DNA of 64,000 bases from Cloeon dipterum (Eukaryota; Arthropoda; Insecta; Ephemeroptera; Baetidae): assembly GCF_949628265.1 (NCBI RefSeq), contig NC_088788.1, positions 4,464,001 to 4,528,000 of the forward strand. The letters run 5' to 3'. Below the pieces are notes generated by a model. The model made no database searches, had not been told where the DNA came from, and saw only the letters and a list, made by a program, of their open reading frames with translations. The stretch's first letter is position 1, and every line of letters begins with the position of its first letter. This document shows, in pieces, positions 22,477-51,480 of the stretch. Position numbers and translations under genes: made by a program.

Positions 22477-23190
22477 TTATTTTAAATTGAAATTTTCTTG
22501 CAATTTTCGCACAAAGTCACTAACAAATAGACAAAAATGGATCTTATCCTCTTCTTTAATGCACTCTTTAATTTGCTGCAAAATTTCGAAATCCTTTTCA
22601 ATTGTCTTTTGCACGTCGTGTGGTCTCTGCTCGTCTAATTTCTAAAGAAAATAAAATAAAAATCTTTTTACCAACGCAACAGGTATAGATATAATCAATT
22701 TCTTATACTTTCTCATTGTAAGCGTGCACCTTGTGAATGTGCTTGCAAATCGGGTGCTCGTCGCGACAGTCGCAGTTGTACGCATGACAGCAGATAAAGC
22801 ACGACCTGCAGTAGCCTTCATTCACGTTGTAGACGTCGTCCACGCCCCAAAATTCGCAAGACGCGTTGTGCGCGTCGATTAGCGCCTCGTCGTCCTGCAA
22901 AACCCTTTCCACGGCGTACACTTTGCCCTCTTCCTCGGAGGACAACAGCCACTCCGTCCGAGACACCTGAATCACCTGTTCGTCTGAAAGGCTTTGGCTC
23001 CGCAAATGCCGCAATTCCACTCCTTATGCGATTAATACACTTATTTTATAGCTAATTAAATTTTATCGTTTTGAATTATCACCTGATACGTTTTTGTCCC
23101 AGTTTCTGAAGCGAGGCTGTTTCCGCGGATGCAAATATGGTTTTCCTCTATGTTCCTCTATGTTGCTTAAATTCGAACCACAAACGCGCT
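22477..23190 (-). CDS. SWIM zinc-finger protein, partial model (transposon-derived or host gene)
   Basis: Three minus-strand exons join in phase: about 23190-23083 (5' limit uncertain), 23022-22709, and 22641-22477 ending in TAA. The introns are 60 and 67 bp with GT-AG ends. The middle exon holds a SWIM finger, C-D-C-x6-C-K-H ('CDCRDEHPICKH'), preceded by more cysteines ('GYCRSCFICC') and by an aromatic/valine-rich segment. This is the arrangement seen near the C-terminus of MULE-type transposases and of the many SWIM proteins derived from them; SWIM domains bind zinc and usually DNA or protein. The last exon adds a charged, probably coiled-coil tail of about 54 residues. No in-frame ATG was found in the first exon; 'ttatag' before 23190 could be a 3' splice site, so a missing 5' exon is likely. 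Whether it is a living gene or a relic is undecided. Confidence 0.55.
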
Positions 23191-23750
23191 ATAATAGAGA
23201 GTCTAGTCAGCGATCCGGACTCTGGAGAATCATATCAACAAGGAGAAATTAATGTAAACAATCGCAAAAACAGTTGAGCGTCTGCGTTGTGCAAGTCTAT
23301 TGACTCCCAATTGATTTTAAAATTAACTTCTATTAAACGGTGCGTCAAATTTTAAAAATTTATTTTATTTTTTCCTATCGATATCCGATTTTCCAATGCC
23401 ACGACTCTTTGGTGAAATTTTTCCTTCCCGCTATTTTGAAAAGTGAACGCATGCGCGCTTAATGGTTTAATTATTTTGTACTTTTATACTCGCTATAGAG
23501 GCCAGGCTAATCGGTTTCATTAGAGCTCGGGGCACGTAGATTATTTTCACCTATTCATAAAAATTAAAAAAGAAAAGATTTAGTTATGGAAACACCAGAA
23601 GTCTATCGCATAATTATCGATTTGGTCGTACCAAATAAAATCGTTACAAACAAACTGCAAAAATCATCAATACTATACCTTTGAGTTCTTTTAATTCTTT
23701 TAATTTAATAATGTATAATTATTGTGGCATTTTGGAGGGTTCCGTTCCTC

Positions 23751-23813
23751 GGTGCTCTTGACTGACCTTAGAGGCGCCATGACCAGGCGCCAATACCGAC
23801 AGTCAAGAGCACC
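23751..23813 (+). repeat. Short hairpin element, copy 1
   Basis: Perfect 14-bp inverted arms, GGTGCTCTTGACTG at 23751-23764 and CAGTCAAGAGCACC at 23800-23813, enclose a 35-bp core that itself contains GGCGCC. The core and one arm recur inverted at 24239-24289. Confidence 0.8.
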
Positions 23814-24238
23814 GTATGAAAACTCCTGGCCGTCGCTGCACACAAAAGATAGAGGCAGGTAGCGGCCGGCGGAACCCCGTCGAGAGGGCACAATGCATAC
23901 ACATACAAACGCATGCACACATGCACAAACAAAAGCCCAAGGCAGCGGACTCTGTTCAGTAGTAAAATGTATTTTGCTAAAATAAATTTTAAAGTAGGGA
24001 TTGCACTAAAAATGCTTACGGGGGTTGCTGCTCGACAGAGGTCGGAAAACCTTCTCAGAAGAAGCCCAAATGCACCATCCCCCGAGTTATTGGAGAGGCT
24101 GCATTTGGCTGCCAGTTTACGCGTCAGCCAGTGGTTGGTTCAGACAAATCGTGCGCTGAGGTTGCGAAAATCACGTTAAAGTTATACAGTGCTCGTCTTA
24201 CACTTCCAAAATAAATGTCAATTCTGTAAAATATACGA
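23814..24238 (+). other. Segment between the inverted hairpin modules, with an orphan ORF
   Basis: An 88-codon frame (23913-24179) lies here. Its last third is GC-rich and followed by AATAAA at 24210-24215. It shows no domain that I recognise. It may be the interior of a foldback element whose ends are the two hairpin modules, or a remnant of a 3' exon. Confidence 0.3.
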
Positions 24239-24289
24239 TGCTCTTGACTGTCGGTATTTGCGCCTGGTCATGGCGCCTCTAAGGTCAGT
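24239..24289 (-). repeat. Short hairpin element, copy 2 (inverted, one arm decayed)
   Basis: Reverse complement of the hairpin at 23751-23813. The arm tgctcttgactg and the 35-bp core are kept with one or two changes; the second arm has decayed after 'gtcag'. The pair forms an imperfect inverted repeat about 540 bp across. Confidence 0.75.
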
Positions 24290-24858
24290 AACAGGCCAAA
24301 GAGTGTCACAACAATAATGTTGCCTATGTGTATAGATAAAATTATAATTTTAGTCATTTTATGAATCTTATATCCAAACTGGAAAAGTGTTGTGGAAATT
24401 AATAATTATTAAAATAGCTTAATTATACTCAACTCTGATTTTAATGCAAAATAATTAAAAAGATTTTCAGTTTTTGAATAGAGTATAAAATTAAAGGTTG
24501 AGATTTTGGTGCTTCCTAAAATGTCAAATATTTTTTACTCATTTATAACAATAAGTTCAAAAAACATTTTAAGCCGAGTATAATTTAAACTGAAAATTGT
24601 CACAGTCAAATTTAGGGTATCTATTTGATCGATTTTTCTAAAAATTATCACTGGCATACCAAAAAGGTCAAAAATCAATTTAAAAAAAATGAAGATTTCC
24701 CTTAATAACGTAAATTGTAATTTAACGTTGTAAACGGTGCACTCGTTGCAATAATTGGCACTTTAATTTTAGGTTTACGAGGATTCTTCCCACTGGAAAA
24801 TAGAATATATTATAAAATAACGGTATATTTTTTACACCAAACGCTGAAAAAAATATAA
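24290..24858. other. AT-rich intergenic stretch
   Basis: No open frame or repeat of note; it ends where the tandem duplication unit of the next genes begins. Confidence 0.5.
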
Positions 24859-25248
24859 TTTACCGTTATCCGCCCCCACCCTCCCTTTGTAAAAGAGATC
24901 ACGCGGCACATTGCAATCCAAGTGAAAGGAAATTCTGTACGCATAACTGGCCTACCACCACCCAGGAAGGTTTGTTCGTCGAGGTGGGCTAGATGCACCT
25001 GCATGTATTGTGTGCTATTAGCGCCGCACTTGCTCATTGTCAGCTGGTCAGCAGGGGGGCACGACACGTGTCGTGTCTTTGTCGAGTTGGGATCGGTTGG
25101 TTGCGTTTCACGCGGCGAGGTCAAAGACCCTACTTACACACATTCCCGTTTCTATCGCGTGAAGTATTCGTTTTTGTCAGGTCTCATAATTAACTCACTG
25201 ACAGTGCTTGCAATAATCGGAATCAGCGGCTATAATATTTGAACCAAC
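24859..25248 (+). promoter_or_regulatory. Duplicated promoter and 5' UTR exon of family copy A
   Basis: This block is conserved at 29348-29767 upstream of copy B although it codes for nothing. Both end in a matching donor site, AACCAAC|GTAAGC (exon end 25248). The coding exon begins behind an acceptor at 25520, so a non-coding first exon lies in this block; its start was not determined. Strongly conserved runs include 'cgcggcgaggtcaaagaccc' (about 25110) and 'cactgacagtgcttgcaata' (about 25196). Confidence 0.6.
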
Positions 25249-25544
25249 GTAAGCTATTTTTTATATTGATATAATTTAATATTATCAATTGGAGCTCTAT
25301 TGTATTATTATTTCAGTGCTCCGGTTCACTATGTTACATACTGATCTAGTTGTAAATTTTTTAAAATTTATTACCTGACATTACAAAAAATGAAAAGAAT
25401 CCTCCTTCAACTTGGGAATTTTCCTGAAATTTGTTACATCGTCATCATTTTTGGTTCTTAATCGGTCTTGGCAAAAATGTTATCTCTTCATAATTTTAAT
25501 GAAAATTGAAATATTTTCAGTGGCCTTATAAAGACACCATTAAG

Positions 25545-28500
25545 ATGGCTAGAACAACATCTCTTAGTGGAACAGCATTATCCGTGTTTCCATGGTATTG
25601 GGAATCCAACGAGGTTAATGACGAATTTTACCATTTCTACTTAGCTCGCTACAACAATTCAAAGTCCGAATCGTTCTTCAAAACCTTCAACGAGGCATTT
25701 CCATTCTACATTCCTCTTGGGTAAGGCGCTGCATAATTATCATTTTTAAAATATTTTGAATGCTTCTTGAAATTTCTTTTATGATTTTATTCTCTCCCCA
25801 TTACTCTTTTAACAATTATATGCTTCAGTTAGAATGGTACAAAAAAATTATCTTGTTTATCGAAGTAAAAACTAAAACCCTTTTTGAATTTGCGTCATAT
25901 TTTCAATTGGGTATCTTTCATCTACAAGCTTAATGTTAAAATTAAAATAGACTAAAATGTTTGATTAAAAAAATAATAATTAAAAATCAGCACTTTGAAT
26001 TTACAAATTCAAACTTCTAGCCACCATCAAATGAGCGTGAAAAAACTGCGAGAAACGTACACTAAAGGAAAATATTTGCGGGTGGCAACTAATTTTGTGA
26101 TGAACAACAAAGCCCACGGTCACCTTCTTTGGAAATTCTACACCGTCTTACAAAAGGACAAAAATTATCAGCACAGACCACAAGTGTCTAACAAAAGAAA
26201 TGCCACTTTCTTTTGGGTGAGAACTATCTTTAATCAGCATAAAAAAATACCTTAATCGGCAATAAATTTTTTTAGGAGTCATCTTGGCAATGCTCCGACG
26301 CGCACAGTTTCATTTTCGAGCAGTGGGTGCTGCTGCAATTGCCGTTCCAACCCGTTCTTCTCAATCAGTGGCTCGTGGCCGTGCTCTACGAATCATTATC
26401 CATCGAGCTAGAGTTGATGGACTTCTACAGCTTCCAATTTCCAGAATCGTGCAAAACAGCCGTGGACAAACTGGATTTGATGTGGGTCGATTTAAACGAA
26501 CGCTTGGGCCTCGGTTTCGACTTTCTGCAACACCTCGTTGACAGAGACATAAACTACGCCCTTCAAGAACTCGACTCGATCACGGAAAATATTAAATCGA
26601 TGCTCTCAATCCTGGACTTTTGGTTCACGGAGGGAAAAGGCGTGATTAGAGCCCTGAAGAAGCTGTGTTGGGCTGGTGAAGACACCAAAAGCGCATTGGC
26701 AGCAAAGAGAAAAAGGATGTCGCCGCTGAGCAACAGGAATTTCGTCTACAACCCAGAGTGGTGGACACAGACAGAAAACCGCTCGAGCAAACTATTTGGA
26801 AGCTCCTCTGAAGACGTTTTGCACCGATATCCATATCTCCAGATTGAGAATCGTACGGAAACAGAAAGGGCAAAACTGTATGGACAACTTTTCTGCAAGT
26901 TTCCTTTAGTGGTGGACACTGATACGGTTGAAACATATTTTGAAGGTGTTTCGTTGGACAATGAATTTTGGAATGAGCTGAAGGAAACGTCAAGTATGCT
27001 TATGTGCTCTTTACTTTAAAAATGGGTCTGTTAAAAGTCTACTTTCTATTTCAGACTTTGAATGCTTGCTCGACATTGATGAATGGCAACACGAATCCGG
27101 TATTTTGGGAGCACTTTTAGCCATGAGGAGCAGACTCACATTCATGGAGGCCGCGCTTAAGATTCCAGGGCACTTGAGCAAAGTTACAGAGAAATCACCG
27201 ATGGAGTTTTTCGACATTAACTTTGCAAACGCAACAAGTGATTTAAAACTGTCAGAAATAATTCAAATTCTCGACAAAGTGGTGCCATCAGAAAAGTTTT
27301 CCTTGTTCCACATGCTAGATCAATTGGAAGAATCTACCAAACAGTGCTTGGAACCAAGATTAGAGCTGAATATTTTTACCGACCTCAAGGTTGTGGCCGA
27401 AATCCTGGAGGTAGGCTAGAATTTTCATTATTTTTTTGTTCACTCTTCCAGAAATAATTTTCCACTTGCCAAGACTATGCTTTTTTCCTAAGATTTTTTT
27501 AAATTTAATTCTACTTCACTTTTAATGCTTTGCTGTTTTCGACGATTTTAATATAAAATATGGTTATAACTATTGTCTCCAGAAAATGGTCACCTACAAA
27601 TTCAATGATATATATAACTTCATTGCATTTTTTTAAATTACAAATAAAATTCCTTATGTTTCAGGCCAAAATTCAATACACGGTACTCAAACACATATCT
27701 TACTGCTACAAAGGTCTAGACCACGACGAAGGAGAGCTACACGACTTTAAAGATTGGTTTTTGATGCAGTACTTTCTGCCTTGCTTTGTGGCCTCGCTGC
27801 TCGACCTCTGGGAAAACGAATCGGCGAAGGAGGGTGTGAAGATATGGTACCTGAAGTTTGTGTACCGCCTCATCGAGCTGTATGAAGCCGATACACCTAT
27901 CACCACCAACCATATTATTAAGCAAGCCAACTTTAAACATTTTCCTCTCTTTTGCTCATACTTCGAAAGGAACAGTGCGTTGTTGCAAATCTTCTGCAGA
28001 AAGGTTTCCGATTTTGTTGCAACTGAGATGAGCCGCGGCAACGGCGAGTTCAACCACTATAAAAAATTTTCCCTCAACGACCTCGTGGATGGCATGGCCT
28101 GCGTGAACCACTGTCACCATAGCCGTCAGCTCCACGATAGCGTCGCTCTTTGGAAATTTTTGGTGTTCGATTTTTTCATGAAAGTCGAAAAAACCGTGCT
28201 GGGCATCCCGACGGCAAAGCTGGTGCTCAACCCTCCCCTCACCCCAGAGGAGAAGGTGCAAGAAATGCTCGACTTGATTCAAGTCATCGACCTCAAGGGC
28301 CTACATTCGCCTTGTGTTGACTTCATACAGGACACTTCCTGCATGGCCACCCTGTTGCACACCACGCTTGTGAAGTTATACGAGAGTCAATTGGCAGAAT
28401 ACAAACTGCAAAAGCCAAGTGTGCAGCATACAATGGCAGTCATCAAAGAGAAAATTGAATCTGAAACGAGCTCCCTCACTTCTAGTAACGTTTTAGGCAT

Positions 28501-28933
28501 CCTCTTTCACATTGTCATGCGGTACTCTGAAAAGCTTGACCGAAAATACTTGGAATGTTTAGCAACTCAGGAGCAATCTGCTCAAACGATATTTCGAACG
28601 ACGGATATCGCGTACCTAGACTTCCTCCAGTCGGATGACATGCCAATTCTCAAAAAGATTGTTTCCGACCTGCTCGGGCCTGAATTCAGATCTTGGTACA
28701 TTCTAGCCAAAGTGTCTTGGCAAGAATCTTACTACTTAGCCTTAAATGAAGTCGATGAAAAAGAGGAAAAGGTGGCAGGGTACACCCCAGGTGAGTTTTG
28801 GTACTTCCCTTTGCATCACTGCTGGACATGCGGAACGATTTTAATAGATAACGCATTAATCGACACCTTCGACGTTACTTGCAAAAGTTTCTACTACTGC
28901 TCAATTGAGTGCAATGAAAAAGCCAAGCATTGA
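25545..28933 (+). CDS. Unknown family protein with C-terminal MYND-like remnant, copy A
   Basis: Five coding exons join in phase: 25545-25720, 26021-26216, 26276-26993, 27055-27410 and 27665-28933, giving 904 residues. All introns have GT-AG ends. The start ATG (context AAGATGG) is kept in copy B. I do not recognise the family. The protein is rich in aromatic and hydrophobic helices, with no signal peptide. The most conserved region against the diverged copy C is exon 3, including 'IFEQWVLLQLPFQP', 'QWLVAV' and 'LFGSSSED'. The C-terminus has HC-x2-C, then a single C, then YCS-x2-C and a last H ('HHCWTCG', 'YYCSIEC'). This resembles a MYND zinc finger (a protein-protein interaction module) that has lost the second C-x2-C pair. 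Zinc binding is therefore doubtful. Function unknown; expression from the upstream duplicated promoter is inferred. Confidence 0.85.
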
Positions 28934-29347
28934 AATTTCCAGATGCCACTTTTAAAACGCCTGATATTTTAGATGTATATGCAACTGACTCAACATTAAT
29001 TTTAGACCACTTTTATCTCGACTGTCTTTTTTCCTTCTTGAAATTGAGCCTGTGCAATATACAGAAAAGATGTCAAACAAATCATTCAATGCATAGCTTG
29101 TTTTATGCGTTTATAAAAATGACACGAAGGTATAAGCTATTTTTTATTTTGTAAATCACCTGCCTCTTCGGCTTATACAAAATTCCTTTTGATCAATTAG
29201 TTTTGAAACTAAAATGACTTCAATAATGATAAAAAAACCAACGAAATTAAACACTGCATACACTTGGAAATATGCCAGAAGAAATCAAATTATTTAAATT
29301 TAGTAGAACCCGAAAAATTCATCAAAATAAAATGTGCTTTCCGACAC
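28934..29347. other. 3' flank of copy A
   Basis: Shares patches with the 3' flank of copy B (33626-33980), including 'gatcaattagttttgaaact' at about 29191 and about 33856. The tandem duplication therefore includes the 3' UTR. No clear AATAAA was found close to the stop of copy A. Confidence 0.6.
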
Positions 29348-29767
29348 AAAAATGTTATTTACTATTCTCCGGCTCTTTACCCTCCCTTTGAAAAAGAGAC
29401 CATGCGGCACATTCAAAGTGAAAGGCAACCCTGTACGCATAACTGACCTACCACAGCCCAGGATGGTTTGAGGCAGGTTCGTCGAGGTGGGCTAGATGTA
29501 GCTGCATGCGTCATTTCAGCGCGTTACTTGAACAGCTGTGTTCATCAGGGGAGGCACGACACGTGTCGTTGTCGAGTTGGGATCAGTACTTAATCAGTTG
29601 GTTGTGTTTCACGCGGCGAGGTCAAAGACCCTACTTACAAGCATTGCCATTTCGATCGCGTGAAGTACTCATTTTTGTCTGCGGAAGGCGACCGGTCTCA
29701 TAATTAACCCACTGACAGTGCTTGCAATAATTGGAATCAGCAGCTAAAATATTTATTTGGAACCAAC
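29348..29767 (+). promoter_or_regulatory. Duplicated promoter and 5' UTR exon of family copy B
   Basis: Second copy of the block at 24859-25248, ending in the same donor AACCAAC|GTAAGC (exon end 29767). It carries small indels relative to copy A, for example a few extra bases in front of 'accggtctcataattaac'. The matching acceptor is at 30091-30093. Confidence 0.6.
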
Positions 29768-30117
29768 GTAAGCTATTTTTTATATTGATATAATTACTGT
29801 TTGTCTCATGTTCATGTTACAATTCTTGTTCAACTTATTCGTATCAATCACATTCGATCATATATCACAACATATCAAATTTCATTAATATTTGTATGAA
29901 AACTGTGTTCATAGTGATCTCGTTGTAAAATTTTTAAAATTTATTACTTGACAATACAAAAAATGAAAAGAATCCTCCTTCAACTTGGGAATTTTCCTGA
30001 TATTTGTTTCATAGTCATCATTTTTGGTTCTTAATCGGTCTTGGCAAAAATGTTATCTCTTCATAATTTTAATGAAAATTGAAATATTTTCAGTGGCCTT
30101 ATAAAGACACCATTAAG

Positions 30118-33100
30118 ATGGCTAGAACAACATCTCTTAGTGGATTAGCATTATCCGTGTTTCCATGGTATTGGGAATCCAACGAGGTTAACGACGAATT
30201 TTACCATTTCTACTTAGCTCGCTACAACAATTCTAAGTCCAAATCGTTCTTCAAAACCTTCAACGAGGCATTTCCATTCTACATTCCTCTTGGGTAAGGC
30301 GCTGCATAATTGTCATTTTCAAAATATTTTGAATGCTTCTTGAAATTTCTTTTATGATTTTATTCTCTCCCTTTTACTCTTTAACAATAATCTGCTTGAG
30401 TTAGAATAGTACGAAAAAATTATCTTGTTTATCGAAGTAAAAACTAAAACCCTTTTTGGATTTGTGTCATATTTTCAATTGGATATCTTTCAACTACAAG
30501 CTCAATGCAAAAATTAAAATAGACCAAAATGTTTGATATAAAAAATAATAATTAAAAGTAGTTTCTTAATAATTAGCACAAACATTTTGTAAGTATTTTA
30601 TTTTATTTCTAATTTATTTATATATTAATTTTTTGTTGAATATATTTTTAATTAATAGTAAACTATATATTTGTTTGTATTAAATTATTTTGAATTTGTA
30701 AACTTTTAGCCACCATCAAATGAGCGTGAATAAACTGCGAGTAACGTACACTGACGAACAATATTTGCGGGTGGCAACTAGTTATGTGATGAACAACAAA
30801 GCCCACGATCACCTTCTTTGGAGGTTCTACACCGTCTTACAAAAGGACAGGAATTATCAGCACAGGCCACATGTGTGTGACATAAGAAAAGCCGCTTTCT
30901 TTTGGGTGAGAACAATCTTCAATAAGCATAAAAAAATACCTTAATCGGCAATCAATATTTTTAGGAGTCATCTTGGCAATGCTCCGACGCGCAGAGTTTC
31001 ATTTTCGAGAAGTGGGTACTGCTGCAACTGCCGTTCCAACCCGTTCTTCTAAATCAGTGGCTCGTGGCCGTGCTCTACGAATCGTTATCCATCGAGCTGG
31101 AGTTGATGGACTTCTACAGCTTCCAATTTCCAGAGTCGTGCAAAACAGCTGTGGACAAACTGGATTTCATGTGGGTCGATTTAAACGAACACTTGGGACA
31201 CTGTTTCGACTTACTGCAACACCTCGTGGACAGAGACATAAACTACGCACTACAAGAACTCGACTCGATCACGGAAAATATTAAATCGATGCTCTCAATC
31301 CTGGACTTTTGGTTCACGAATGGAAAAGGCGTGATTAGAGCTCTTAAGAAGATGTGTTGGGCTGGTGAAGACACCAAAAGCGCATTGGCAGCAAAGAGAA
31401 AGAGTGTGTCGCCGCTGAGCAACAGGAATTTCGTCTACAACCCAGAGTGGTGGACACAGACAGAAAATCGCTCGAGCAAACTATTTGGAAGCTCCTCTGA
31501 AGACGTTTTGCACCGATATCCATATCTCCAGATTGAGAATCGTACGGAAACAGAAAGGGCAAAACTGTATGGACAACTTTTCTGCAAGTTTCCTTTAGTG
31601 GTGGACACTGATACGGTTGAAACATATTTTGAAGGTGTTTCGTTGGACAATGAATTTTGGAATGAGCTGAAGGAAACGTCAAGTATGTTTATGTGCTCTT
31701 TAATTTTAAAATGGGTCTGCTAAAATTCTCCTTTTTATTTCAGACTTTGAATGCTTGCTCGACATTGATGAATGGCAACACGAATCCGGTATTTTGGGAG
31801 CAGTGTTAGCCATGAGGAGCAGAGCCACATTCATGGAGGCTGCGCTTAAGATTCCAGGGCACTTGAGCAAAGTTACAAAGAAATCGCCAATGGAGTTTTT
31901 CGACATCAACTTTGCAAACGCAAAAAGTGATTTAAAACTATCAGAAATAATTCAAATTCTCGACAACGTGGTGCCATCAGAAAAGTTTTCCTTATTCCAC
32001 ATGCTGGATCAATTGGAAGAATCTACCAAACAGCGCTTGGAACCAAGATTAGTGCTGAATATTTTTACCGACCTCAAGGTTGTGGCCGAAATCCTGGAGG
32101 TAGGCTAGAATTTTCATTATTTTTTTGTTCACTCTTCCAGAAATAATTTTCCACTTGCCAAGACTATGCTTTTTTCCTAAGATTTTTAATTCCACTTCAC
32201 TTAGTAATGTGCTGTTTTTGACGATTTGGATATAAAATATGGTTATAACTATTGTCTCCAGAAAATGGTCACCTACAAATTCAATGAAATATATAACTTC
32301 ATGGCATTTTTTTAAAATTACAAATAAAATTCCTTATGTTTCAGGCCAAAATTCGATACACGGTACTCAAACACATATCTTACTGCTACAAAGGTCTAGA
32401 CCACGACGAGGGAGAGCTACATGACTTTAAAGATTGGTGTTTGGTGCAGTACTTGCTGCCTTGCTTTGTGGCCTCTCTGCTCGACCTCTGGGAAAACGAA
32501 TCGGCGAAGGAGGGTGTGAAGATATGGTACCTGAAGTTTGTGTACGGCCTCATCGAGCTGTATGAAGCCGATACACCTGTAACCACCAACCATACGATCA
32601 TGCAAGCCAACATAACATATTTTCCTCTCATTTGCTCATACCTCGAAAGGAACAGTGCGTTGTTGCAAATCTTCTGCAGAAAGGTTTCCGATTTTGTTAC
32701 AACTGAGATGCGCCGCGGCAACGGCAAGTTCAATCACTATGAACATTTCTCGCTCTACGCCCTCGTGGAAGGCGTGAAATGCAAGAACCACTGTTACCAT
32801 ATTGAGCTCCACGATAGCGTCGCTCTTTGGAAATTTTTAGTGTTAGATTTTTTCATGAAAGTCGAAAAAACCGTGCTGGGCATCCCGACTGCAAAGCTGG
32901 TGCTTAACCCTCCCCTCACCCCATTGGAGAAGGATAAAGAAATGCTCGACTTGATTAGAGTCATCGCCTTCAAGAACGTAAATTCGGTAGATTTACATTG
33001 TGTGGATTTCATGCAGGAAAATTCCAGCATGACCGACCTGTTGCACACCACGATTGTGAATTTTTACAAGAGACATATGACACAAGACGATGTGCAATGT

Positions 33101-33625
33101 AAGCAGCGTTTACTGGGACACCTCACAGAGAAAATTAAATCTGAAGCTAGCTCCCTCACTTCTAGTAACATTTTCGGCATCATCTTTCACATTGTCATGC
33201 GGTACTCAGAAATGCACGGCCGAAATTACGGAAATTTTTTGAGAAATTTACCAATTCAGGAGCAATCTGCTCAAACGATATTTCGAACGACGGATATCGC
33301 GTACCTAGACTTCCTCCAGTCGGATGACATGCCAATTCTCAAAAAGATTGTTTCCGACCTGCTCGGGTCTGAATTCAGATCTGTGTACAGTCTAGCCAAA
33401 ATTTTTTGGAATGATATTTACTACTTAGCCTTTAACGATGTCGACGAGGAGACAACAAAATTGAAAAGTTACACTCCAAGTGAGTTTTGGCACTTCCCTT
33501 TGCATCACTGCTGGACGTGCGGAACGGTTTCATTAGAATCTAAAGGATTCGTCGAGGTGAAGGACTCTGCTGGCAAAAGTGTCATCTACTGCTCAATTGA
33601 GTGCAAAGAAAAGGTCGAGCATTGA
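30118..33625 (+). CDS. Unknown family protein, copy B (recent tandem duplicate of A)
   Basis: Exons 30118-30293, 30710-30905, 30965-31682, 31744-32099 and 32345-33625 join in phase to 908 residues. The first four exons have exactly the same lengths as in copy A (176, 196, 718 and 356 nt). Parts of exon 3 (about 31435-31680) are essentially identical to A. The last exon differs by substitutions and small indels in blocks, with identical stretches between them. At the C-terminus HC-x2-C and YCS-x2-C are kept, but the lone middle cysteine of copy A is gone, so the MYND-like site is more degraded. An AATAAA lies at 33778-33783. Intron 1 is about 115 bp longer than in A through an AT-rich insertion (about 30560-30690). 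The reading frame is intact, so I read it as a functional gene of unknown role. Confidence 0.85.
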
Positions 33626-34398
33626 AATTTCCACATGCCTGCTATTTTAGATGTGTATGGAACAGACTCAATATATTTAATTTTAGAGCACTTTTATCTC
33701 GAATGACTCTCCTTCTTGAAATTGAGCCTTTGCAATATAGAGAAGAGATGTCAATGTATATATAGCATCTTTTATGCAATAAAAATAATGTCACATATGT
33801 AAGTTAATTTTTTAATTTGGAAATCCTCTGCCTCTTCATCATATAGAAATACCTCGATCAATTAGTTTTGAAACTAAAATAAATTCAATAATGATAAGAA
33901 ACCAAGGAAATTTAACACTGCAAACACTTGGAAATGCAAGAAAATATCAAAAACTCTAATATTAGTAGCCCCCCCCCCAAAAAAAAACGTCAAAAATTAA
34001 ATCTTACCCTTACTCATAATATCATATTATATGTTATTGAAATGTGGAGTGAGAAAGATCATTTTAACCATCTTCAACAGAGTTTCCTTTACTCATTTTC
34101 TTGCTTGAAGAAAAATAAGTGAAATATTTACCTCCCGTGAAATATTTGAAATTGCGAAAGCAAGAATTCTTCTAGTATTTTGTTGAGGGCAGTATACCTT
34201 TTTCGGACCTGAATTCTTTTCTGTTTTTCGTGTTCCCCACCTCCCTCAACAAATACAGCATTATATTGCGACCGCTGCGACTGTGACAATCGTTTCTCCT
34301 GCTCTCTCTCCTTGTAAAATGTAAGAAGAAGAAAAGGTGGTACTGCATGTATTCTGACTTACATTTCACTGATTTTCTATTACATTCTAATATTTCAG
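33626..34398 (+). other. Intergenic stretch and possible 5' UTR of copy C
   Basis: Contains the copy B poly(A) signal (33778-33783), a C8-A8 homopolymer junction near 33970-33987 where similarity to the copy A flank ends, and a possible non-coding first exon of copy C. That exon could end at a donor 'aaat|gtaaga' near 34320, but its start is unknown. The acceptor before the copy C ATG is at 34397-34398. Confidence 0.45.
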
Positions 34399-34401
34399 AT
34401 T

Positions 34402-37400
34402 ATGGCAAATAATGTTGAACGTCCCATCCGCCCTTTGGCCACCTTGCCCTGGGCTGGAAAAGTAAGCGAGGACGTCGAGTCGGTTTTCAAGACGTTCACT
34501 TTGGAGCTGAATGCCTCCGCGGTCTTCGAGAATCTCAAGATTCCAGCGTCAAAGAAAAAGAAACTATTCAGCAGCTTTAATTTCTTCAACAAGGATTTTC
34601 CATTTTATCTTCCTTTAGAGTGAGTCATTGAATTTTCGCGTTTGCCTATAATCTCAATAAGCTTTTCCATTTAATCTAAAGATTCCACCGAATTAATGTA
34701 GCAGAGCTCCAGAAAAATTTTAAACACGGAAGATATTGGGATGTGGCTCTTTACTTAGTAACTATTTGCAATGCCAGTGGAGTCCCCACTTGGAGCAAAT
34801 TCGAATCTCAGGTCAACTCGAGAGACAGCACAATCACATGCAGACCAACCATACCCAAACATTTTCTGACGTCATCGCACAATTTTCCAGTTTAGTATAT
34901 CTCAAGTGTTTGTTTAAAAAATAGCTCCCTCTATTTATTATTTAAAAAAAATATGAAATTTGCCAGATTTAAACCATGACATTGAGGACCTGTTAATCTA
35001 TTCCCTTATAGTAGAGTAAAGACAATATATATAATAATGAATTAAATATATGTTGGAAACATAGGATAAAAGTCACATAAAAATTATATACACGAACATT
35101 CCTACTACTTTGCTAAGCCTGAATTTTGATCAGTTTCCTTCATTTACTTTTACATTTTCATTTTTTTTTTATTAATAAAAAATTGCGATCAAGGCAAACT
35201 TCCCAGGTTATTTATTTACTTATTTTATAATACATTTCTCAACTGCTTCCTCGAATTTCAGAACGGAATTCCTCAGTGCGGGAATGCGAGAGAGTATATT
35301 TTCGAGAAGTGGGTTTTAATCCAGTTGCCTTTTAAGCCCGTTCTCTTCCATCAGTGGCTCGTGGCAGTATATTACGAGGCGATGTCGTTTGAAATGGAGA
35401 TTGCAGAATTTTACAGCTTCCCTTTTCCGGAATTTTGCCTGCCTGCTGTGAACATGCTTGACTCGATGTGGAAAAAACTTAGCAAAAATATTGGTCTGGG
35501 ATTCGACTGGCTGCAAAGGTTCGCGGACGGCGGTCAGGAATTCGTCTTGAGCAGCGGCATGGAACTATTTTTAGAAACAATGAACGAGGTTCTCACGTTC
35601 CTGGAATTCTGGTTCCTCAAGGGACCAGCAGTGATAGTTGAGCTCAAGAAGCTGTGCTGGGGCAACCCAAATAACACTGCCAGCGACAAGATGGTCAAAA
35701 TGAAGAAGGAGAAGCAGCCATTGAATGAGCGGATGTTCATTTACAACTTAGACTGGTGGAAGGCAGATGCTGCTGGAAAGCGCAAGATTTTTGGCTCTTC
35801 TTCCGACCTTCATGCAAAGCACTGCAAAAAATGTGCAAAACCTAAGAAAATTAGGGAAAAGGAGGATAAATTTTGCAAAGAAATTAGATATTTTATCAAC
35901 GTCTCTCAATTTCAAATGGAGTTAATCAAAATACATGCTGATTTGGGGAAAGATGCGGTACTCAAGAAGCTTATCAGAAACTTTAACAATTGCTTACGTA
36001 TGTATATTAGACAAATTATGTTTGATTTTAAACCAACGTCACTTTTTGCGATTTGATTACAGGATTGTTAGAAACGCTCAGAATCCAGCCTAAAGAGTTT
36101 GGAATTTTAGGCACGATTATGTTCATGAAATCCAGAGTCGCACTCGTGGACAGTGTGACTGCTCTTGCTGCACACATGAGCCAACTGTTGGACGAATTGC
36201 CAGCTACAATTTACGATATGAACCTTAAAGCTTGCAAGGATCAAACATTGCAGTGGATTACTTCAAATTTGGAAGTTAAAAAATTGAATAAGTTTAGTTT
36301 GTGTATTCTTTTGAGTAAATTAAATATTGAAATCCTCGGCAATGAAGTGAGAGCAACGCAACCGCCTTCGTTGGAACAAATTAAGGATGAGTTAGAGGTA
36401 TGATCTTTTAATAATGCGCTGGTTAAACATATTTAAATTACAACTAAAATTTTAACAATATATTATAGGGCTGCGCTTTTAGCATTTTGAGCCAAAATTT
36501 ACTTGATATCTGTTTTATTCTTTAAATTTATTTTCGCATCGTAAACGGAAACTTTTAATTAAATTTGGGCAGTAAATATTTTTCTGCATAATTTTCACTA
36601 ATTCGGTGAAACAACAAAAAGCTCAATAGTACTTACAAAAACGATTTTGGTTTCTTAGACCGCGGTTACAATAAACATATAATACATATTGTAAATAATA
36701 TGAAATAAAGCTTTGGAAAATTTGAAGAATAATCATTTTTCTTCATATAGTTGCTCCAGGATTCTTGAGAAACTTTTTTCTCATTTTTCCACATATATTT
36801 TAAGAAAACAATTGAAATTTTACCCTAAAACATTTTGTGAAAGACCAATATTTTAACTTGAAATTCCTCGACTGTCTTTTTTACTGTCAAGTTTTATCTC
36901 AAGGCTCACCACAGTAAAAACCAAAATTAATAATATTTTATACTATAAAGCTTTCAAAAAAAATTTTTAATGAAGAATGTGAAATGCGCAGCATGATTTT
37001 TTTTAATCGTTGAGAATTTAACTTGTTTGATGACTAATTTATTTTTTATTATAATTTCAGCTACGCATACAACAGTTGGTGTTGATGGCCATAAACAAGC
37101 ATTACCCCGATTTTTTGAAGAAAAAACGGCCCTCAAATAAATTGACGGAACCCCCAGGAGATTGGCAAATTGGACAATATATTCTGCCCTGTTTGGTGGC
37201 TTCATACTTCGAAGATTGCTTATCTTTCCCACGCAAAATAGGTATCAATAACCAATATTTTAAATTGATCATCGCAATTCTCGGAAACTATAAGAGCGAG
37301 GGATTCCCAAAATCTTCGTCGCGCTGCGTCAATGACGATATTCGAAGCCACTTGGGGCTGTACCTCTCCATCTCTCATCGTCGCAGCGAGGATTTCATCA

Positions 37401-38335
37401 ATCGCCACATCACAACGATTTTGTCCAAATTTTACGATAAAATCAGTGCCAATAATATGGTGGTGAACAGGGATTCCTTTAATCTAATAGAAAATTTTGT
37501 GAGCGACATTTTGGAGAGACACAAAGAGCAGTCTTTTGATCACTGGATTAGACTCATCTGGGACTTCATCAACAGGATTGGGACGGTTTTGGAGATGAAT
37601 GCTGTTGATTTGATGAAAGTTCCAGAGGACCAAAAGAGAGCTGACATAATGTGTCTGATCAAAACGGTTCATTTCGACTTGGATGATTGCCAGCCAGACC
37701 TCAGCGAAATTGACCTTCTGATCATCACCATAAAAAACTGCACAGAGAGGCATGGAGCCAAGACCAAATTCACCAAACAAATGGAAGAGGAGATAAAAAA
37801 CCAGGCGGGTTTTTTGAATAATAAGCAGATTTTGAAAATTGCCCTTTACTTGGCCTTGGAGTATCCCAAACTGGATTGTTCCACGTTCTCGAATCTTGGA
37901 CAGATTCCACAGCCGAACAAAGCCATCGCCTTGGAAGTAATTTTGCACAGTTTCATCTCTGCAAAAGATCAGTGCTGGGAACTCAAGGAATTTGTTCACG
38001 ACTTTTTTGATGAAGGTTCCTCCGTTTCGTTCAAATTTGCCAACAAGCTTCCAGCATGCTACAAAATTGCTTTAATCCAAATAATAGACGCTGCGTCCAA
38101 AGCAAAGGTACCATTTAACACCTTGTTTTTCCCAATCAAGCATTGCCGAAATTGCACCTCAGTAAAACAGCCGGAATCACCCAAAATATGCTCATTATGT
38201 ACCACTTCGTACCCACAACGGAGCTTTTTCTGTTCACAAACATGTTTATTTGACGCGGCTTGTCTATATCACAATGATGAACATCTGAACTACATTTCAT
38301 ATAGAGAAAAGCAGAATGCAACAATTGAAGATTGA
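34402..38335 (+). CDS. Unknown family protein with intact MYND-like zinc finger, copy C (diverged paralogue)
   Basis: Exons 34402-34619, 34682-34889, 35262-35997, 36063-36397 and 37061-38335 join in phase to 923 residues. Intron positions and phases (2, 0, 1, 0) equal those of copies A and B, which proves common descent although the protein is much diverged. Exon 2 is recognised by homology and begins after 'ctaaag'. Its 3' end rests on a weak donor (CCA|GTTTAG) and is the least certain junction. The C-terminus reads C-x2-C-x11-C-x2-C-x9-FCS-x2-C followed by H ('HCRNC', 'CSLC', 'FFCSQTC'), close to a classical MYND finger. This copy probably keeps the ancestral zinc site. An additional C-x2-C pair ('HCKKC') sits after the conserved 'IFGSSSD' motif. 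Poly(A) signal AATAAA at 38619-38624. Function unknown. Confidence 0.82.
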
Positions 38336-38820: not shown

Positions 38821-40283
38821 CTAGAGTTTGCTCAGCGCAGAGCCTACGCTGGCCGCGTGCTTCTCAGCGAACAGTTTCACTGCGTGCATAGCTGTTCCAG
38901 GCGAGCTGGTTACACCGTAGCCTCCGTGGCCGTAATTGTGCACAACCTAAGTGAAATAGCATAGAAATAATTAAAAAAAAGTTAATTTACAGGTATAAAA
39001 TATTTTAATCCAATAAGAAATAACCCAAAAAAATTGTAAGCAACATACCGATAGATTTTTTCCAGAGGGAAGTTGAATATTCTCGGCCTCGACCCGGACA
39101 GGGTCCCTGTGTGGGCGCAGACCGACCCAATCCCTCACGAACTCGGCCTTTTCCAAGCTCGGGACAACAGCAGAACAGCGTTTCTGAATGTCAGCCTTGG
39201 TGAAAGGGCAAACGCTAAGGTCGTAGCTACCGTAGTTTCTGCAACCACCAAGGGTGATTGTGTTTCTGTTTGGGATGATGTAGGTGTCAAAGTCAGCCAT
39301 GTAGCTCGCCTTCACCCACGGTGCTCGAACCTTAATAATCTGAACAAAGATTATTTAGAAGAATTAATAAGTTGTTTTTAATTTCTAACTTGTCCTCTGA
39401 TGGGAGTCAGTTTTGGGTCATTGCACAGATACTTGGCACCCAGACCAGTGCAGTTAATGACCACGTCAAAATCTTCTACGTCTGAGAACGAGTTCACTTT
39501 GGCCTGCCGAAACTTGCCTCCAGACCGAGTGATTCTGTTATTTGGCGGAATTAATTTTTTTTATGTTAGGGAGAGTAATTTAATGTAAGAGTTTACTTTT
39601 CAATAGCCCATGGCTGATACTCTCGGCACTCCATGATCAGGGTTTTGTAAAAAGCGCCCCACTTCCATCCAGGGTACTCCTCGAGCTCGGACTCCGTCAT
39701 GGAGCGGTAGACAGGCACCACGGTCTCTAACAAGTGGTTCTGTGAAATAAAATTAAAATCAAAATTTTTTTAGCACACAACTTATCATTTGTCCTCTGTA
39801 GTAGGAGGAACAGAGTGCAGATTAGCAGTTTCAAATCACCCAAAATAGTTAAAACACAACTAAAAACGCAGAGTCCTGACATGTATATTAAAATAATCTT
39901 ACCTTGACCATTCCTTCGTTGTAGTTTGAAAATATGTAGGCAGGGATTTGGAAGATTCCACCGGCCTCGCCTTCCCCAGTGATACGCAGAGCGTCATAGT
40001 ATCGATATGAATCCAGAATCCACTTCCTATAATATATAGTAAGAAAATAACGTGTATGAAGGTAAAATAAAAACAAAAATATTTACTTTGTGATTTCCAA
40101 CGATGGACCGCTGAAGGAAGATGACGGACGGAAAAGTCCAGCCGCACCATCACTTGTGGTGTCCTGGTTGAATTTTTCTGCAATGATGGTCACGTCCAAG
40201 GTGGGAAACTCATTCTGCAGCTGAATGGCAGTGTTGAGGCCGACCACGCCGGCTCCCAAGATGCCAACTCGTTTCACTCCCAT
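38821..40283 (-). CDS. Peroxisomal D-amino-acid oxidase / D-aspartate oxidase
   Basis: Six exons join in phase on the minus strand: 40283-40087, 40026-39903, 39739-39597, 39534-39390, 39339-39049 and 38946-38821, giving 341 residues (family about 340-350). FAD-dependent enzymes of this family oxidise D-amino acids to imino acids, releasing hydrogen peroxide. The N-terminus has the dinucleotide-binding G-x-G-x2-G ('GILGAGVVG', residues 7-15). Further family signatures are 'INCTGLGA', 'PIRGQ', 'GLRPHRDPVR' and the 'VVHNYGHGGYG' block (residues 301-311). The protein ends in SKL, a type 1 peroxisomal targeting signal. Whether neutral or acidic D-amino acids are preferred cannot be read with confidence. 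The ATG chosen is the first codon before the FAD fold; a 3' splice site at 40297-40298 lies just upstream, so a non-coding first exon probably exists. The SRPK-like gene ends 245 bp upstream on the same strand. Confidence 0.92.
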
Positions 40284-40528
40284 GTCTTGTGCGCTTCTGC
40301 AAGAGAAAGTCAATAATTAAATTCCTATATGCCAAAACCAAAGATTTCATGCGTTTTAGGAAAGAAATAATTTATTAAGAGCTTGATTTTTCTGTAGAGA
40401 ACAATAAAAATTATTTATTTAAGGCTTAATTGCTACACATGCTTTACAAGCAATTGCTTTTTGTATTATTATAAGCTTTAATCACAAAATGTACACTGCT
40501 ATTAATATTTGTATTTTTATGTTTCCGA
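40284..40528 (-). other. Short gap between kinase 3' end and oxidase start
   Basis: Contains AATAAA signals on the minus strand at 40414-40419 and 40371-40376 for the kinase transcript, then a splice acceptor (40297-40298) 13 bases upstream of the oxidase ATG. There is little room for a separate promoter and first exon. Confidence 0.55.
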
Positions 40529-46015
<5,487 letters not shown>

Positions 46016-49000
46016 TTAAAACATGCCGTCCCTAACTCCGATGGGCACGAGGACCATGAGGAAGAGCACCACGTTGCGCAGCGCCAGCTTCCAGTCGTTG
46101 GGCACGGCGTACGGCGTCAGGGCCTTAGTCAGGCTGTGCAGTTCGTGCGACGCGCAAACAAACACAAAGCTGGTGATAAGCGAGTTGAGCACAGGGTAGC
46201 CTGGCAGCAGGACCAGCACGCCGTGCGTGTCCGCGGCCAGCCACACGTGCGACTGGCACACGAAAAGCTCCAGGGCGATGCGACCGAACCACGCGAAGAA
46301 GGTCGAGTAGCGCGTCCGCAGCACGCCAGACACATTTCTCAAAACGATGTAACTGACGATCTGAAAATTTGAATTATTTTTTAAGCTTTAACTTTTTACA
46401 AGCAAAATCCTGTGATAAAGTGTAGGTAATGTAGTATTAATTGCTCTTACTGGAACAAATACTGTATAAGAGTGGATCTCGTTGCATTCCTGCTTGTTTC
46501 GGCAGAGGAACGAAAATGTGGTGTACCCTCCGATGCCAATTAGAGAGGCCAGAGTGGCGGACAAGGCGATGCCAGGAGAGAAGAGGTTGCTGTGATTGTT
46601 GTCGTCAAATAGGTTGAGTCGCTGCGCCAGAAGAAACGCGAAAGCAAACACACAGCCAAAAGACATGCTGCAAAGAGAAGAATTATTTGCGTTAGTACAA
46701 AATTTAGAAATAGTAATGGTTTGATGGAAAAATCCTCAGATTTATAGGTACAAGTTTAATCCCAAACTGATAGTTTTTGTTTGGTCCTCAAAATGACTGC
46801 TTAAAAATATTTTAGAAGCGCAGTAACTAACCTATATCTATCAAGCTTCCAGCGAAACCACCATTCGTGAATATCATCATCAGTGGTGACAAAGAGAGCT
46901 TTCCAGGGGCGAGTGACGAATACTTTCTCGAAAAATACCTGTAAAAACGAACAAAATTATTAGTCTTGTCAAAAGGTCATGAAAATAATGTACCTCAGAC
47001 ATGTAGAGGATGGTTATCACGCTAAACAAGCCGACCAGTTTAATCACCAAATAAAAATAGTGAAGTGGATTGTGATCAGCTGAGGTGGACGTAATGTGTG
47101 GTGGAAGGGCCAATACCACGTACAGCATGAGGAACCAGAAAGAGATGAGTGGCACAAAGTAGTAGAACTGGTATGGCCGGTTCATTATCAAGCATAGGAC
47201 AACTGTCAAGAAGTTTAGCCGGAACAGGACCTAAACAGATTAAATGACAACTTTGACATGAGTAATTTTTTAATTTATTTTAGAACACAGTAAAAAAGTA
47301 GAAGGTTCATTTTTGTATAGAATTGTTTGAGAAGATTAAAATGATTTAAATTTAGAGAGTCCTTAGTGTTCAAAGCCGCTAACCTAAAAAACCTAGACAA
47401 AAAACCTTAGTAATTGTTTCTACAGCAAACAGATTATGATTTTTGGCTTGTCAAATTAAATCTTTTTACGCCAAGATTGTAGTAGCAGCATTTAATCCGA
47501 ATCAAATATTATAAATTAAGACAGTAGTTTACTTTAGTGGCTGTTCCAGCAGCGCAATTACAGGAAATATATTTTTACCTGAAGGAATCTGACCAAACTA
47601 GCGTCGCCTCTGTGCCAGAAGTAGCTGAAGTGGCCGTATCCCGAGAGGAACAGGTAGGACGAGACCATCACTCTGACGTGCATGTAAATTGGCAAAATGC
47701 CACTGGCGCCGGTCATGTGGTACACCAGGATCACTAACTGCATCCAGCCTAAACATTTCTCTTATGAATGAGCGAAACGTCAATGGAGCAAAGCACAATC
47801 CACCTTTCCACTCGTCAGTTTGGTCCCTGTGGAGCACTTTGGTGTATCGCGAGTCTTCGGTGAAGAACAGACCGAGGGCAAAAACGTAGCCGACAGGCAG
47901 CCAGAAACTCACTTGGGTGAAATACTTGTTTTCCTTCATAAAAAAGCTAGTCCTGCAAGAGAAATATTATTAGCAGATAATACAAGTAAAGAACAAAAAT
48001 CCATCCCAAGATTTGAAATATCCATATTCAATTTTTAACCAATTCCACAACTTTTTAAAATGAAAGCACACCTGTCACATAAGTAAAAGTAGCCCATGAT
48101 AATCGCTAGCTTTCCCAGCGCAGTCATAATTTCAGTGAAGTCGTCCTTGCTCTCCACAGGTTCATTTTCGTCGGTTTGCACCCTGGAGTACTCGTGACTC
48201 CTCCTCCATCTTTGGTACTTCATCCTAAAGCCCATCACGAGTGCTATGACTAGGCTGTAACAAACGTTGCAATTTAATTTGATCCATTTTTTTATTATTT
48301 GTTTCAGGGCATGACTAACCACACTCCAAGAGCAGAGAAAGTGACGATCTGCAGAGTTGTCGAGCTCTCCGCGGAGCTGCAGCAGGTGCCGTCGTTGAAG
48401 TTCATGTGGTCGTTGCAGTACATGTTGAGCAGGATTTGTGTGTCGTGTTTAAGGACCAAAGGACTAAGATGGAGACCGTCGTCACTTTCGTCCATGTTGC
48501 CTTGAGCTACGAGCCGAGAGCTGGACCACAACTCTGCCTTGCTGTGCTGAAGAATCTGCAGGTTTTGATTTAAATGAGATATATTTAACTCAACACTGAA
48601 CAGGGTTGCAAAAATAGTGTTTTTTAAAAAAAAGCCATGCTGTGGTAAATAAAAAGCGGATATTTTCAATTTTAACCAGTTTGTTGCAGGTAATGTTTGC
48701 ACCTCAGTTTTCAATAATTTTATAATTATTTGCTCAAGACCTAGACTTGAAATTTTTGGAGAAATGGAGGCAGCAAATGGCAATTTATTAAAAGAAAAAA
48801 ACAGTAGAGGAAAGTTTGACCACTCCAACCGCAAATTTTAGATTTTCACAAGAGAAAAATGGAATAAATTAATTTCTTGCATTTCTTGAGCTAGAAATTG
48901 GTAAAAATTGAGTGGCAAAAACCGTTAAAAACCAGTGGTAGGCAAATGAAACCCTGGGACTGAACGTTTAGTTTCTTGTACCAATTGCCTGGTTGATGTT

Positions 49001-51260
49001 GGACTTGAAATTAACACGAATCATGTTATTTCAAGCAATTTAGGCCCACGTAACAATCAACTACTCATCTCAAATCCAATTTAACTTTCCCCAATATCAA
49101 GAGTAAGGCAATACTATTTTTAGCCGCATCCCACCACCGATTTTCTTGTATGAGCCCGAATTTTGGCTTCATAACTTAAATTTATATTGGTCATTTCCTT
49201 CTAATTTCCTGAAAGTCTACACTTTTGAGCCAAAAAATTTGCATCTGAGAGCGGAACGGACCCAGGGTTTCCTTTCAAGCTTAGCGAGACTCATAGTCTT
49301 TTATGACTTTTTTTTAACAAACTTTAAAGTTACACGGCAAACAATCACAGTTCCCATTATAGCGCGTTCAAATTTAACATTGCCTCGCATTAAAGAGAAA
49401 AAATGTCCACAAAAAACAAAACTATTTCAATAAGCAAAAACAAGCCCAAATATTTGGCTATTTTGAACCAAACCCAGAATAGAAATGATCAGCTCTTGGT
49501 ATAAGAGCTTCTGTTTGTCTCAGTAGCGGTTTCTCAACAATCAAACGTGAATTATCTTGTTGCAAGAAAAAGGCAACAATCAATTCGACAATGAAAATTT
49601 GGGTATTTGTTGAGCGATGCGCAATTTCAATTTCACCGCTACCAGAATATTGTTCATTTCAGATTGTATTTTACTATGCGTTAAAAATAGAATTTCCCAA
49701 CTATTTTATCATTTAATAGTGAGATTAGATTGTATAAACACGACTAATAATTGTATTTCATTTACGAAAACCAATTATTATTTGCACCAATCTTGAATTA
49801 TTATTTGAAGCAGAGTACATAACTTGTTATTAGTGTGGCGCCAACAGCAAAATTCGTTAATATTTACGTCCTGGTCCCGGTAAAATTGCGCAACGTTCAA
49901 CACACACCGAAATTTTCATTGTCGAATTGATTGTTGACCTTTACTTGCAGCAAGGAAATTCGCGTTTGGTTGTTGAAAGTTGCGTAATTTTACCGGGACC
50001 AGGACAATATTTGTACAATTTTTACAATCCCATAAAGAATCATAAATAACCTTACCTCAATAGCTGCCTTATTGTAGAGATCAATTTGGTCATTCGTTAT
50101 CATCGACCGGGTCGGGAACAACTTTGCAGCGTTCACTGGTTCCTGCAGGGTCCACAGTACTCTCGAACGCCTTTTGGACATGACATCAATGGCCTGTAAA
50201 AGTTGACCAGTAGAAAAATACTAAAACAATCGTAAAAAAACATACTTGAACCAATGTGGTGAGATTTTTCGTGTACTCGACTAGAGCGACTTGCGAGCCA
50301 TTTGACTCCTTGATGGACCAGGTGGCGCCGCCTGCCACAATCACGCTTGGAGGCTGGCCACTCTCCTTCCAGTCGTTGAAGCTTTCGGACATGTGCTTGT
50401 TGACCACGGGACTCCAGATGAACTGCACCTTCAGCCGCAGCTGGGCATCCCCGAAGGAGAGGTCCGTGTGCGCGCGGTTCTCCAGCTTGGCTTCGTGCAG
50501 AAGAGAGGAAGTCTTCGAGTTGCTGTCCAGCTGCTTCAAGAATGTTTCGTACAGCTGCCTGATGCGAGAGTCACCCACGAAGACGAAGTGGTTGTGACGA
50601 CCCAGAAACGCCAGATACCGAAAACAACGTCTTGTGTCCCTGCGTGAAAAAAAGGGTTCACACGTTAAAATTGTGAGCAGATGTTCGGGGAAAAAAATTA
50701 GCTTACGTCAGAGTATACTTGTGCATCATGCAACCGTACGGCTGCCACTCCGTGTCGCCTTTATAGCTTCCATCAGAGAGTAACCACTTGCACGAATCGA
50801 TCCCTGGAAATTGATTGCCAAGTTTTTTTATTTGTTAGAAAACAACCTTCATATGTATTTACAAATTTGTTTCAGGAGGACTTTCAGATATCTAGAGAAC
50901 TCATCTGTTCAAGATATGTAGAGAAAAATCGTTCCTTTTTTATGGTGGTGACAATTGAAATCAACACCCGAGTCAAAATTTCGTTCATGCCGAGACAAAC
51001 AACTTTTTTTTCGTTAATTAATAAGTCACAAAAAGTACGTGGGCGCTTACTGTGAGTGATGACCATGCATTCAACCAACAATTTATTGTCTCTAAATTCA
51101 GCTCACCGTACTGCAGGTGCAAAATTCCGTGGTAGCTGATGAACCCGAGGACCATGATGCACGCGAGCAGCTTGGCGTTTTTCGCGTTGATCTGCTGCAC
51201 GAAGTCAGCCGCCGTTCTGTCCTTGCCGTAGCCACCCAAGCTTTCGGTCTCCATGTTCAT
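46016..51260 (-). CDS. CASD1: CASD1, N-acetylneuraminate 9-O-acetyltransferase
   Basis: Twelve exons join in phase: 51260-51107, 50803-50707, 50639-50246, 50193-50056, 48555-48320, 48254-48072, 47952-47804, 47748-47579, 47230-46994, 46938-46832, 46667-46451 and 46360-46016. The protein has 808 residues (human CASD1 about 797). It is the Golgi enzyme that transfers acetyl from acetyl-CoA to sialic acid. An N-terminal membrane anchor (about residues 30-49) is followed by a luminal SGNH/GDSL-like domain. Its nucleophile is Ser108 in '[11 protein letters not shown]', and the catalytic Asp287/His290 pair is in 'DGLHL'. Other signatures are 'PYGCMMHKY', '[11 protein letters not shown]' and 'MNFNDGTCC'. 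From about residue 335 a Cas1p-type multi-pass membrane domain follows, with '[14 protein letters not shown]', 'FRWKLDRYS' and '[20 protein letters not shown]'. All catalytic residues are present. Intron 4 (1.5 kb) has collected a MITE and two foldback repeats. Confidence 0.96.
48601..48956 (-). mobile_element. hAT-like MITE R4, copy b (in CASD1 intron 4)
   Basis: A 356-bp copy starting CAGGGTTGCA and ending in ACCCTG, in inverse orientation to copy a. The flanks 'acactgaa' (48593-48600) and 'ggactgaa' (48957-48964) match at 6 of 8, a decayed target duplication. Confidence 0.75.
49521..49645 (-). repeat. Foldback repeat R5, copy 1 (in CASD1 intron 4)
   Basis: Begins cagtagcggtttc and ends in the inverse tttcaccgctaccag. 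Its interior ('caattcgacaatgaaaattt') is the reverse complement of the interior of copy 2 at 49868-50005. Confidence 0.65.
49868..50005 (+). repeat. Foldback repeat R5, copy 2, with long terminal inverted repeats
   Basis: A 138-bp element with ends of about 35 bp that are inverse repeats of each other with only two mismatches (starting GTCCTGGTCCCGGTAAAATT). The flanks 'aatattt' on both sides (before 49866 and from 50006) could be a target duplication. Its right end is about 50 bp from CASD1 exon 4. Confidence 0.75.
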
Positions 51261-51480
51261 CACGCGCGATTCACTGCCTCAGAGTCATCTAATTAGGCGA
51301 AATCGCTGAATTTCTCGGTCCTGCGGAACCGCTAATGTTTTGATATTATTGCACGGGCGGTCCGGGTTCAGCCCAGAAGACAGGCGACAAATCAGAGCGA
51401 GCGCAGAGTGATGACGTCAGAGCTACCCAGTGGCGGGAACGCTTGCGCGCGAGGGAAATAATTCGTGCTAAAAGAGTATA
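51261..51480 (-). promoter_or_regulatory. Likely CASD1 promoter / 5' UTR region
   Basis: GC-richer DNA directly upstream of the CASD1 ATG. It contains the perfect CRE palindrome TGACGTCA at 51412-51419, about 150 bp from the ATG. No TATA box was identified with confidence. Confidence 0.4.

Follow-up and report, generated by a model that had tools for sequence, protein, structure and literature searches.

Three tandem genes of Cloeon dipterum encode large proteins that match no catalogued full-length family and end in a putative four-cysteine finger

Within a 64,000-nucleotide stretch of the Cloeon dipterum genome (NCBI RefSeq assembly GCF_949628265.1, contig NC_088788.1, positions 4,464,001 to 4,528,000 of the forward strand; hereafter the window, whose numbering we use throughout) we analyzed three neighboring genes, here called A, B, and C. 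Judged by their sequences, the encoded proteins match no catalogued family in the libraries searched, except weakly at a small C-terminal tip, and they probably hold on to other molecules. The window sits on a 37.1 Mb contig of a genome of 190.1 Mb in 10 contigs.

A tandem family with a common gene structure

A, B, and C are arranged head to tail on the + strand, and each has five coding exons. Gene A (25545-28933; exons 25545-25720, 26021-26216, 26276-26993, 27055-27410, and 27665-28933) encodes 904 amino acids, gene B (30118-33625; exons 30118-30293, 30710-30905, 30965-31682, 31744-32099, and 32345-33625) encodes 908, and gene C (34402-38335; exons 34402-34619, 34682-34811, 35262-35997, 36063-36397, and 37061-38335) encodes 897, with the ATG of copy A at 25545 and the stop of copy C at 38335. 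Exon ends were set by hand, guided by homology and by GT/AG; all 12 introns have GT...AG ends, the intron phases are 2, 0, 1, and 0 in each gene, and the spliced models translate with no internal stops. In a three-way protein alignment, introns 1 and 4 occupy identical columns (73 and 517) in all three copies, while introns 2 (columns 138, 138, and 122 in A, B, and C) and 3 (columns 395, 395, and 401) lie in gapped stretches with their phase kept. The fifth exons of A and B, 1269 and 1281 bases long, differ by a multiple of three. On these sequence features, we do not doubt that A, B, and C are coding genes.

By eye, an acceptor-like TTTCAG precedes the ATG by 24 bases in A, 24 in B, and 3 in C. 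Its presence upstream of all three start codons suggests that the genes probably share one more intron, in their 5' untranslated region. A scan for sigma-70 promoters was uninformative, as was a scan for AATAAA, which occurs 204 times in the window.

Over 901 aligned codons, proteins A and B share 83% identity, and C is 31% identical to both A (819 aligned codons) and B (820). BLASTP aligned residues 1-874 of A with residues 1-841 of C at an E value of 3.5e-78, a sequence homology far beyond chance. The best conserved block is exon 3 of A (26276-26993, + strand), which shows 43% identity to the homologous exon of C (35262-35997). An initial annotation of this DNA had proposed a tandem family of about 900-residue proteins with the same intron phases and exon order, in which C was old and strongly diverged, and our models bear out each of these points.

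Further copies were sought with tblastn, using all three proteins. Over the surrounding 284 kb at E ≤ 0.1, all 37 rows fell inside A, B, and C, and at E ≤ 1 the flanks gave chance-level rows only, one set covering 26 residues in L009 (E 0.79-0.86) and another row covering 63 residues at window 48655-48485 (E 0.87). The genome holds 14 zf-MYND places and one zf-FCS place (L011). A search that took in 12 of the 14 (L001-L008 and L032-L035) together with L011 found no copy in these 13 short loci, with a best E value of 0.09. One of the loci L032-L035 contains a 428-residue open frame. The initial annotation had seen in the three genes the pattern of a lineage-specific expanding family; the 284 kb search, which gave three copies and no more, does not support an expansion beyond A, B, and C in that region.

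No full-length relative in the libraries searched

We found no full-length relative of A, B, or C in Pfam (24736 models), NCBIfam, PHROGs, PADLOC, or the PDB sequences, and two scans of IMG/VR, with exon 3 and exon 5, returned no relative. NCBIfam is built for bacteria and archaea, and the scope of PHROGs is limited to the viruses that infect them. Nothing in Pfam rose over the cut-off for any of the three proteins, and the sub-threshold Pfam matches listed for the three tails are all to zinc-finger or treble-clef models. A profile built from the three sequences gave one match at E ≤ 10 among the PDB sequences, with an E value of 1.2. The initial annotation had stated that the proteins fit no known family, which agrees with these results. 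It had also ranked them as the best candidate for an undescribed system in the window; what we keep of this is the lack of a match in the libraries searched, and nothing beyond it.

A somewhat unlikely alternative is that A, B, and C belong to an animal family that is widely conserved and has a known function, but have diverged too far for the profile libraries to recognize them. Our profiles come from three sequences only, the searched libraries are without animal proteomes, NCBIfam is bacterial and archaeal in scope, and Pfam presumably does not cover every arthropod family, all of which would allow such a relative to escape notice; the absence of any match over cut-off among the Pfam models and the single poor PDB match argue against it. 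We regard as very improbable that the family is a domesticated viral or mobile-element gene, duplicated in tandem. Such an origin would agree with the orphan status and fast evolution of the family, but the four introns are common to A, B, and C, the exon 3 and exon 5 scans of IMG/VR gave no relative, and of 106 viral fold matches to a low-confidence exon 3 model, none was at E ≤ 0.001. The lack of a PHROGs match points the same way, as weak evidence given the viruses that library covers.

A putative four-cysteine finger at the C-terminus

Each protein carries a short cysteine motif near its C-terminus. It reads C-x2-C-x22-C-x3-C in A (28820-28912, + strand) and C-x2-C-x23-C-x3-C in B (33509-33604, + strand), both with YCS at the third cysteine, and C-x2-C-x25-C-x3-C in C (38144-38245, + strand), with FCS at the third cysteine and an extra CxxC in the spacer. 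The pattern CX2CX14-30[FYW]CSX2C is thus present in all three proteins; among shuffled sequences it arose 5, 1, and 7 times per 100,000 for A, B, and C, respectively.

The initial annotation had described the C-terminus as MYND-like. A zf-MYND domain is of the C4-C2HC type, with eight ligands forming two cross-braced zinc sites (PMC3555993). A and B have half of these ligands, and A matches zf-MYND (PF01753) below the cut-off of 22.7 bits (12.1 bits for the whole protein; 16.8 bits, E 0.0074, for the tail alone), but the full MYND finger is absent. For B and C, no zf-MYND match is among the Pfam matches listed at E ≤ 10. We rejected a full zf-MYND domain in A and B, which carry C-x2-C and C-x3-C only and lack the four other ligands. 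The same assignment was rejected for C, which has one additional CxxC yet not the eight-ligand spacing, and whose score against a MYND profile made from the same genome was at chance level (118 of 2000 shuffles).

The ligand pattern of zf-FCS is given as CX2CX14-30FCSX2C, and zf-FCS and zf-MYND are placed in one Pfam clan (PMC4047054). In a treble clef, a zinc knuckle is followed by a beta-hairpin and an alpha-helix, the knuckle and the start of the helix each supplying two ligands (PMC4999995). The finger of A and B appears from its sequence to be one four-cysteine site, for which the TRASH-clan treble-clef spacing (zf-FCS, L24e/RLP24) is a better fit than MYND, and the tip probably binds zinc. 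Individual profiles fell short of their thresholds. zf-FCS (PF06467, gathering threshold 22.4 bits) is not listed for the whole proteins or the tails at E ≤ 10, a search in which the HMMER filters drop most weak matches, and Ribosomal_L24e had no Pfam match for whole proteins or tails. With cut-offs of 26.6 to 27 bits, TRASH_ZMYM4 scored 14.9 bits over the finger of B, VATC 13.2 bits in B and 10.6 in A, and DUF2116 12.1 bits in C.

In the low-confidence exon 5 model of A, 37 of the 50 fold rows listed fall on the last 41-43 residues, and these are ribosomal or pre-ribosomal chains (root-mean-square deviation 1.2-2.4 Å); at least 10 of the 37 chains are labeled RLP24, L24/eL24, uL24 (one), or TRASH-domain protein among the 60 of 87 label rows listed. 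A gap-free alignment of the tail with RLP24 spans 32 residues (8 of 32 identical; E 0.002 as a single comparison). The genome's own RLP24-like ribosome biogenesis gene is one open frame at L036 (G000:C2:16263619-16263813, - strand), and a second L24e place lies in two pieces at C5:13563024-13563246.

We consider it quite unlikely that the finger acts like L24e in binding RNA or the ribosome, which would make A, B, and C translation- or RNA-linked proteins and not protein adaptors. The overlay of the A tail model on eL24/RLP24 chains, the finger spacing of A, which equals that of the RLP24-like protein, and the 32-residue alignment all favor this possibility. The identity to RLP24 is low, however, A and B stop 6 residues past the last cysteine without the lysine-rich stretch that follows the RLP24-like finger, and for fingers of the same clan, zf-FCS, binding to RNA, DNA, or proteins has been reported (PMC4047054).

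Mosaic divergence and selection in A and B

Self-comparison of the window, in three pieces, placed A in a duplication unit at 24849-29306 (+ strand) whose partner, containing B, lies at 29348-33968 (+ strand), with mosaic identity between the two. Nucleotide identity is 0.82 in the far flanks on both sides, 0.94 just upstream of the genes, 0.89-0.96 in the four introns, and 0.97, 0.90, 0.96, and 0.96 in exons 1 to 4. It is 0.96 over the first 236 bases of exon 5 and 0.76-0.90 in four of the five blocks of its distal part, the exception being the block at 28561-28690 with 0.98. The longest identical run is 219 bp, whereas the longest in any of 2000 permutations is 126. Windows of 100 bases vary far more than expected, with a variance of 73 where 9 would be predicted.

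The ratio of replacement to silent substitution rates (dN/dS), obtained from the single A/B pair by a simple counting method, is 0.35 in exons 1-4, where the two rates differ (p 7e-5). In the fast-diverging distal exon 5 (27899-28930 in A, + strand; residue 561 to the end) it is 1.28, which does not differ from 1 (p 0.25), and in the last 54 residues it is 1.2, likewise not different from 1. The replacement and silent counts of exons 1-4 and distal exon 5 contrast at p 1.6e-4, with the boundary at residue 561 having been picked after the divergence had been seen. Exons 1-4 are under purifying selection, and from residue 561 on there is no detectable constraint.

Because the flanks are about 18% diverged while identity in the 5' part is high yet patchy, the simplest reading of the sequences is that an older A/B duplication was followed by gene conversion affecting some stretches of the unit, chiefly those toward the 5' end. 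Replacement of the 3' end of one copy from another paralogue would look alike. The initial annotation had called A and B recent copies; they are indeed much closer to each other than to C, but with the noncoding flanks this diverged and much of the 5' part homogenized, the description holds only in part. An inverted repeat lies just upstream of the A unit (23750-24289); its arms, 23761-23817 and 24289-24233 on the opposite strand, are 96% identical.

The ratios near 1 would also be expected if A, B, or both were redundant duplicates that are losing function, their distal exon 5 drifting without constraint, and the identity of four of its five blocks resembles that of the flanks. We think this unlikely, as A, B, and C all keep an open frame through their five exons, exons 1-4 are constrained, the exon 5 length difference preserves the frame, and the four cysteines are kept in both A and B.

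A possible adaptor role

We found no predicted membrane span in A, B, or C: no 19-residue window has a mean hydropathy above 1.6 (maxima 1.37, 1.49, and 1.47). The exon 3 homologue of C (35262-35997) was modeled, at low confidence, as long helices, and the two low-confidence models, of exon 3 and exon 5, agree with a mostly helical protein, as had been proposed in the initial annotation.

Because the proteins appear rich in helices and free of membrane spans, and because their body is conserved while the end, which bears a small finger, changes fast, we put forward, at about even chances, that they form an intracellular family of helical adaptors with a single-zinc interaction finger. The conserved helical body, which runs from exon 1 into the first part of exon 5, would be the scaffold. 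A protein or RNA partner, differing between the copies or changing over time, would be bound by the finger and the rest of the variable C-terminal two-fifths. The partner may be a protein or a nucleic acid, since fingers of the clan are described as binding either (PMC4047054). The split of A/B from C would be old and the A/B duplication would have followed; gene conversion would then have homogenized A and B over much of their first three-fifths, leaving the partner-binding end to diverge. The contrast between conserved body and variable end is that of the A/B pair only.

Several points weigh against an adaptor family. The structural models of A and C are poor, the gene models were built from sequence alone, it is quite possible that the proteins belong unrecognized to a conserved animal family, and there is a small chance that distal exon 5 simply drifts neutrally. 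A bolder proposal, to which we assign a low probability, is an undescribed animal family of large helical scaffolds in which conversion keeps the scaffold common while an L24e/FCS-type finger end diversifies. If true, the diversifying end would fit arms-race recognition proteins, for example in the intracellular binding of foreign RNA or protein. Were the family truly restricted to one lineage, it would show cleanly how a large new protein can arise around a minimal treble-clef tip, and its conserved, homogenized body and free tail would offer a natural contrast for tests of diversifying selection. As it stands, A, B, and C are one more small family of orphan animal genes, well defined in structure and far less so in function.

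Other genes in the window

On the - strand at 46022-51272, exons match Cas1_AcylT (E 3.7e-49 in one, 9.7e-8 in another), and PC-esterase is weakly matched as well (E 0.026); we take this gene to be CASD1-like. At 54547-59650, also on the - strand, Ras and BTB matches are over cut-off in two exons and weaker Roc/Ras matches lie in a third, presumably parts of one RhoBTB-like gene. The - strand at 39082-43481 contains a protein kinase exon (40532-40936, E 4.6e-13) and a kinase-like exon without a Pfam match (43245-43481), SRPK-like by eye; beside them, exon 39082-39318 matches DAO (FAD oxidoreductase) at E 1.5e-6. A coding-like exon at 22712-22984 (- strand) has a CxC...HxxCxH stretch that by eye resembles a SWIM-type zinc site, and no Pfam match at E ≤ 0.1.

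Comparison with known systems

Helical bundles, such as FAT domains and designed bundles, are among the closest known systems for the family. Its finger resembles zf-MYND, as described in the sources cited above, in the CxxC and YCSxxC half present in A and B and in the clan shared with zf-FCS. The published zf-FCS (MYM-type) pattern is matched letter for letter by C, and by A and B with Y in place of F; FCS-bearing chromatin proteins differ in that none of their other domains was matched over cut-off in A, B, or C. L24e/RLP24 shares the C-x2-C-x22-C-x3-C spacing of copy A, as seen in the genome's own RLP24-like protein, and the low-confidence tail model of A overlays it over 41-43 residues at 1.2-2.4 Å. 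L24e/RLP24 is an N-terminal ribosomal domain, whereas here the finger is the tail of a 900-residue protein.
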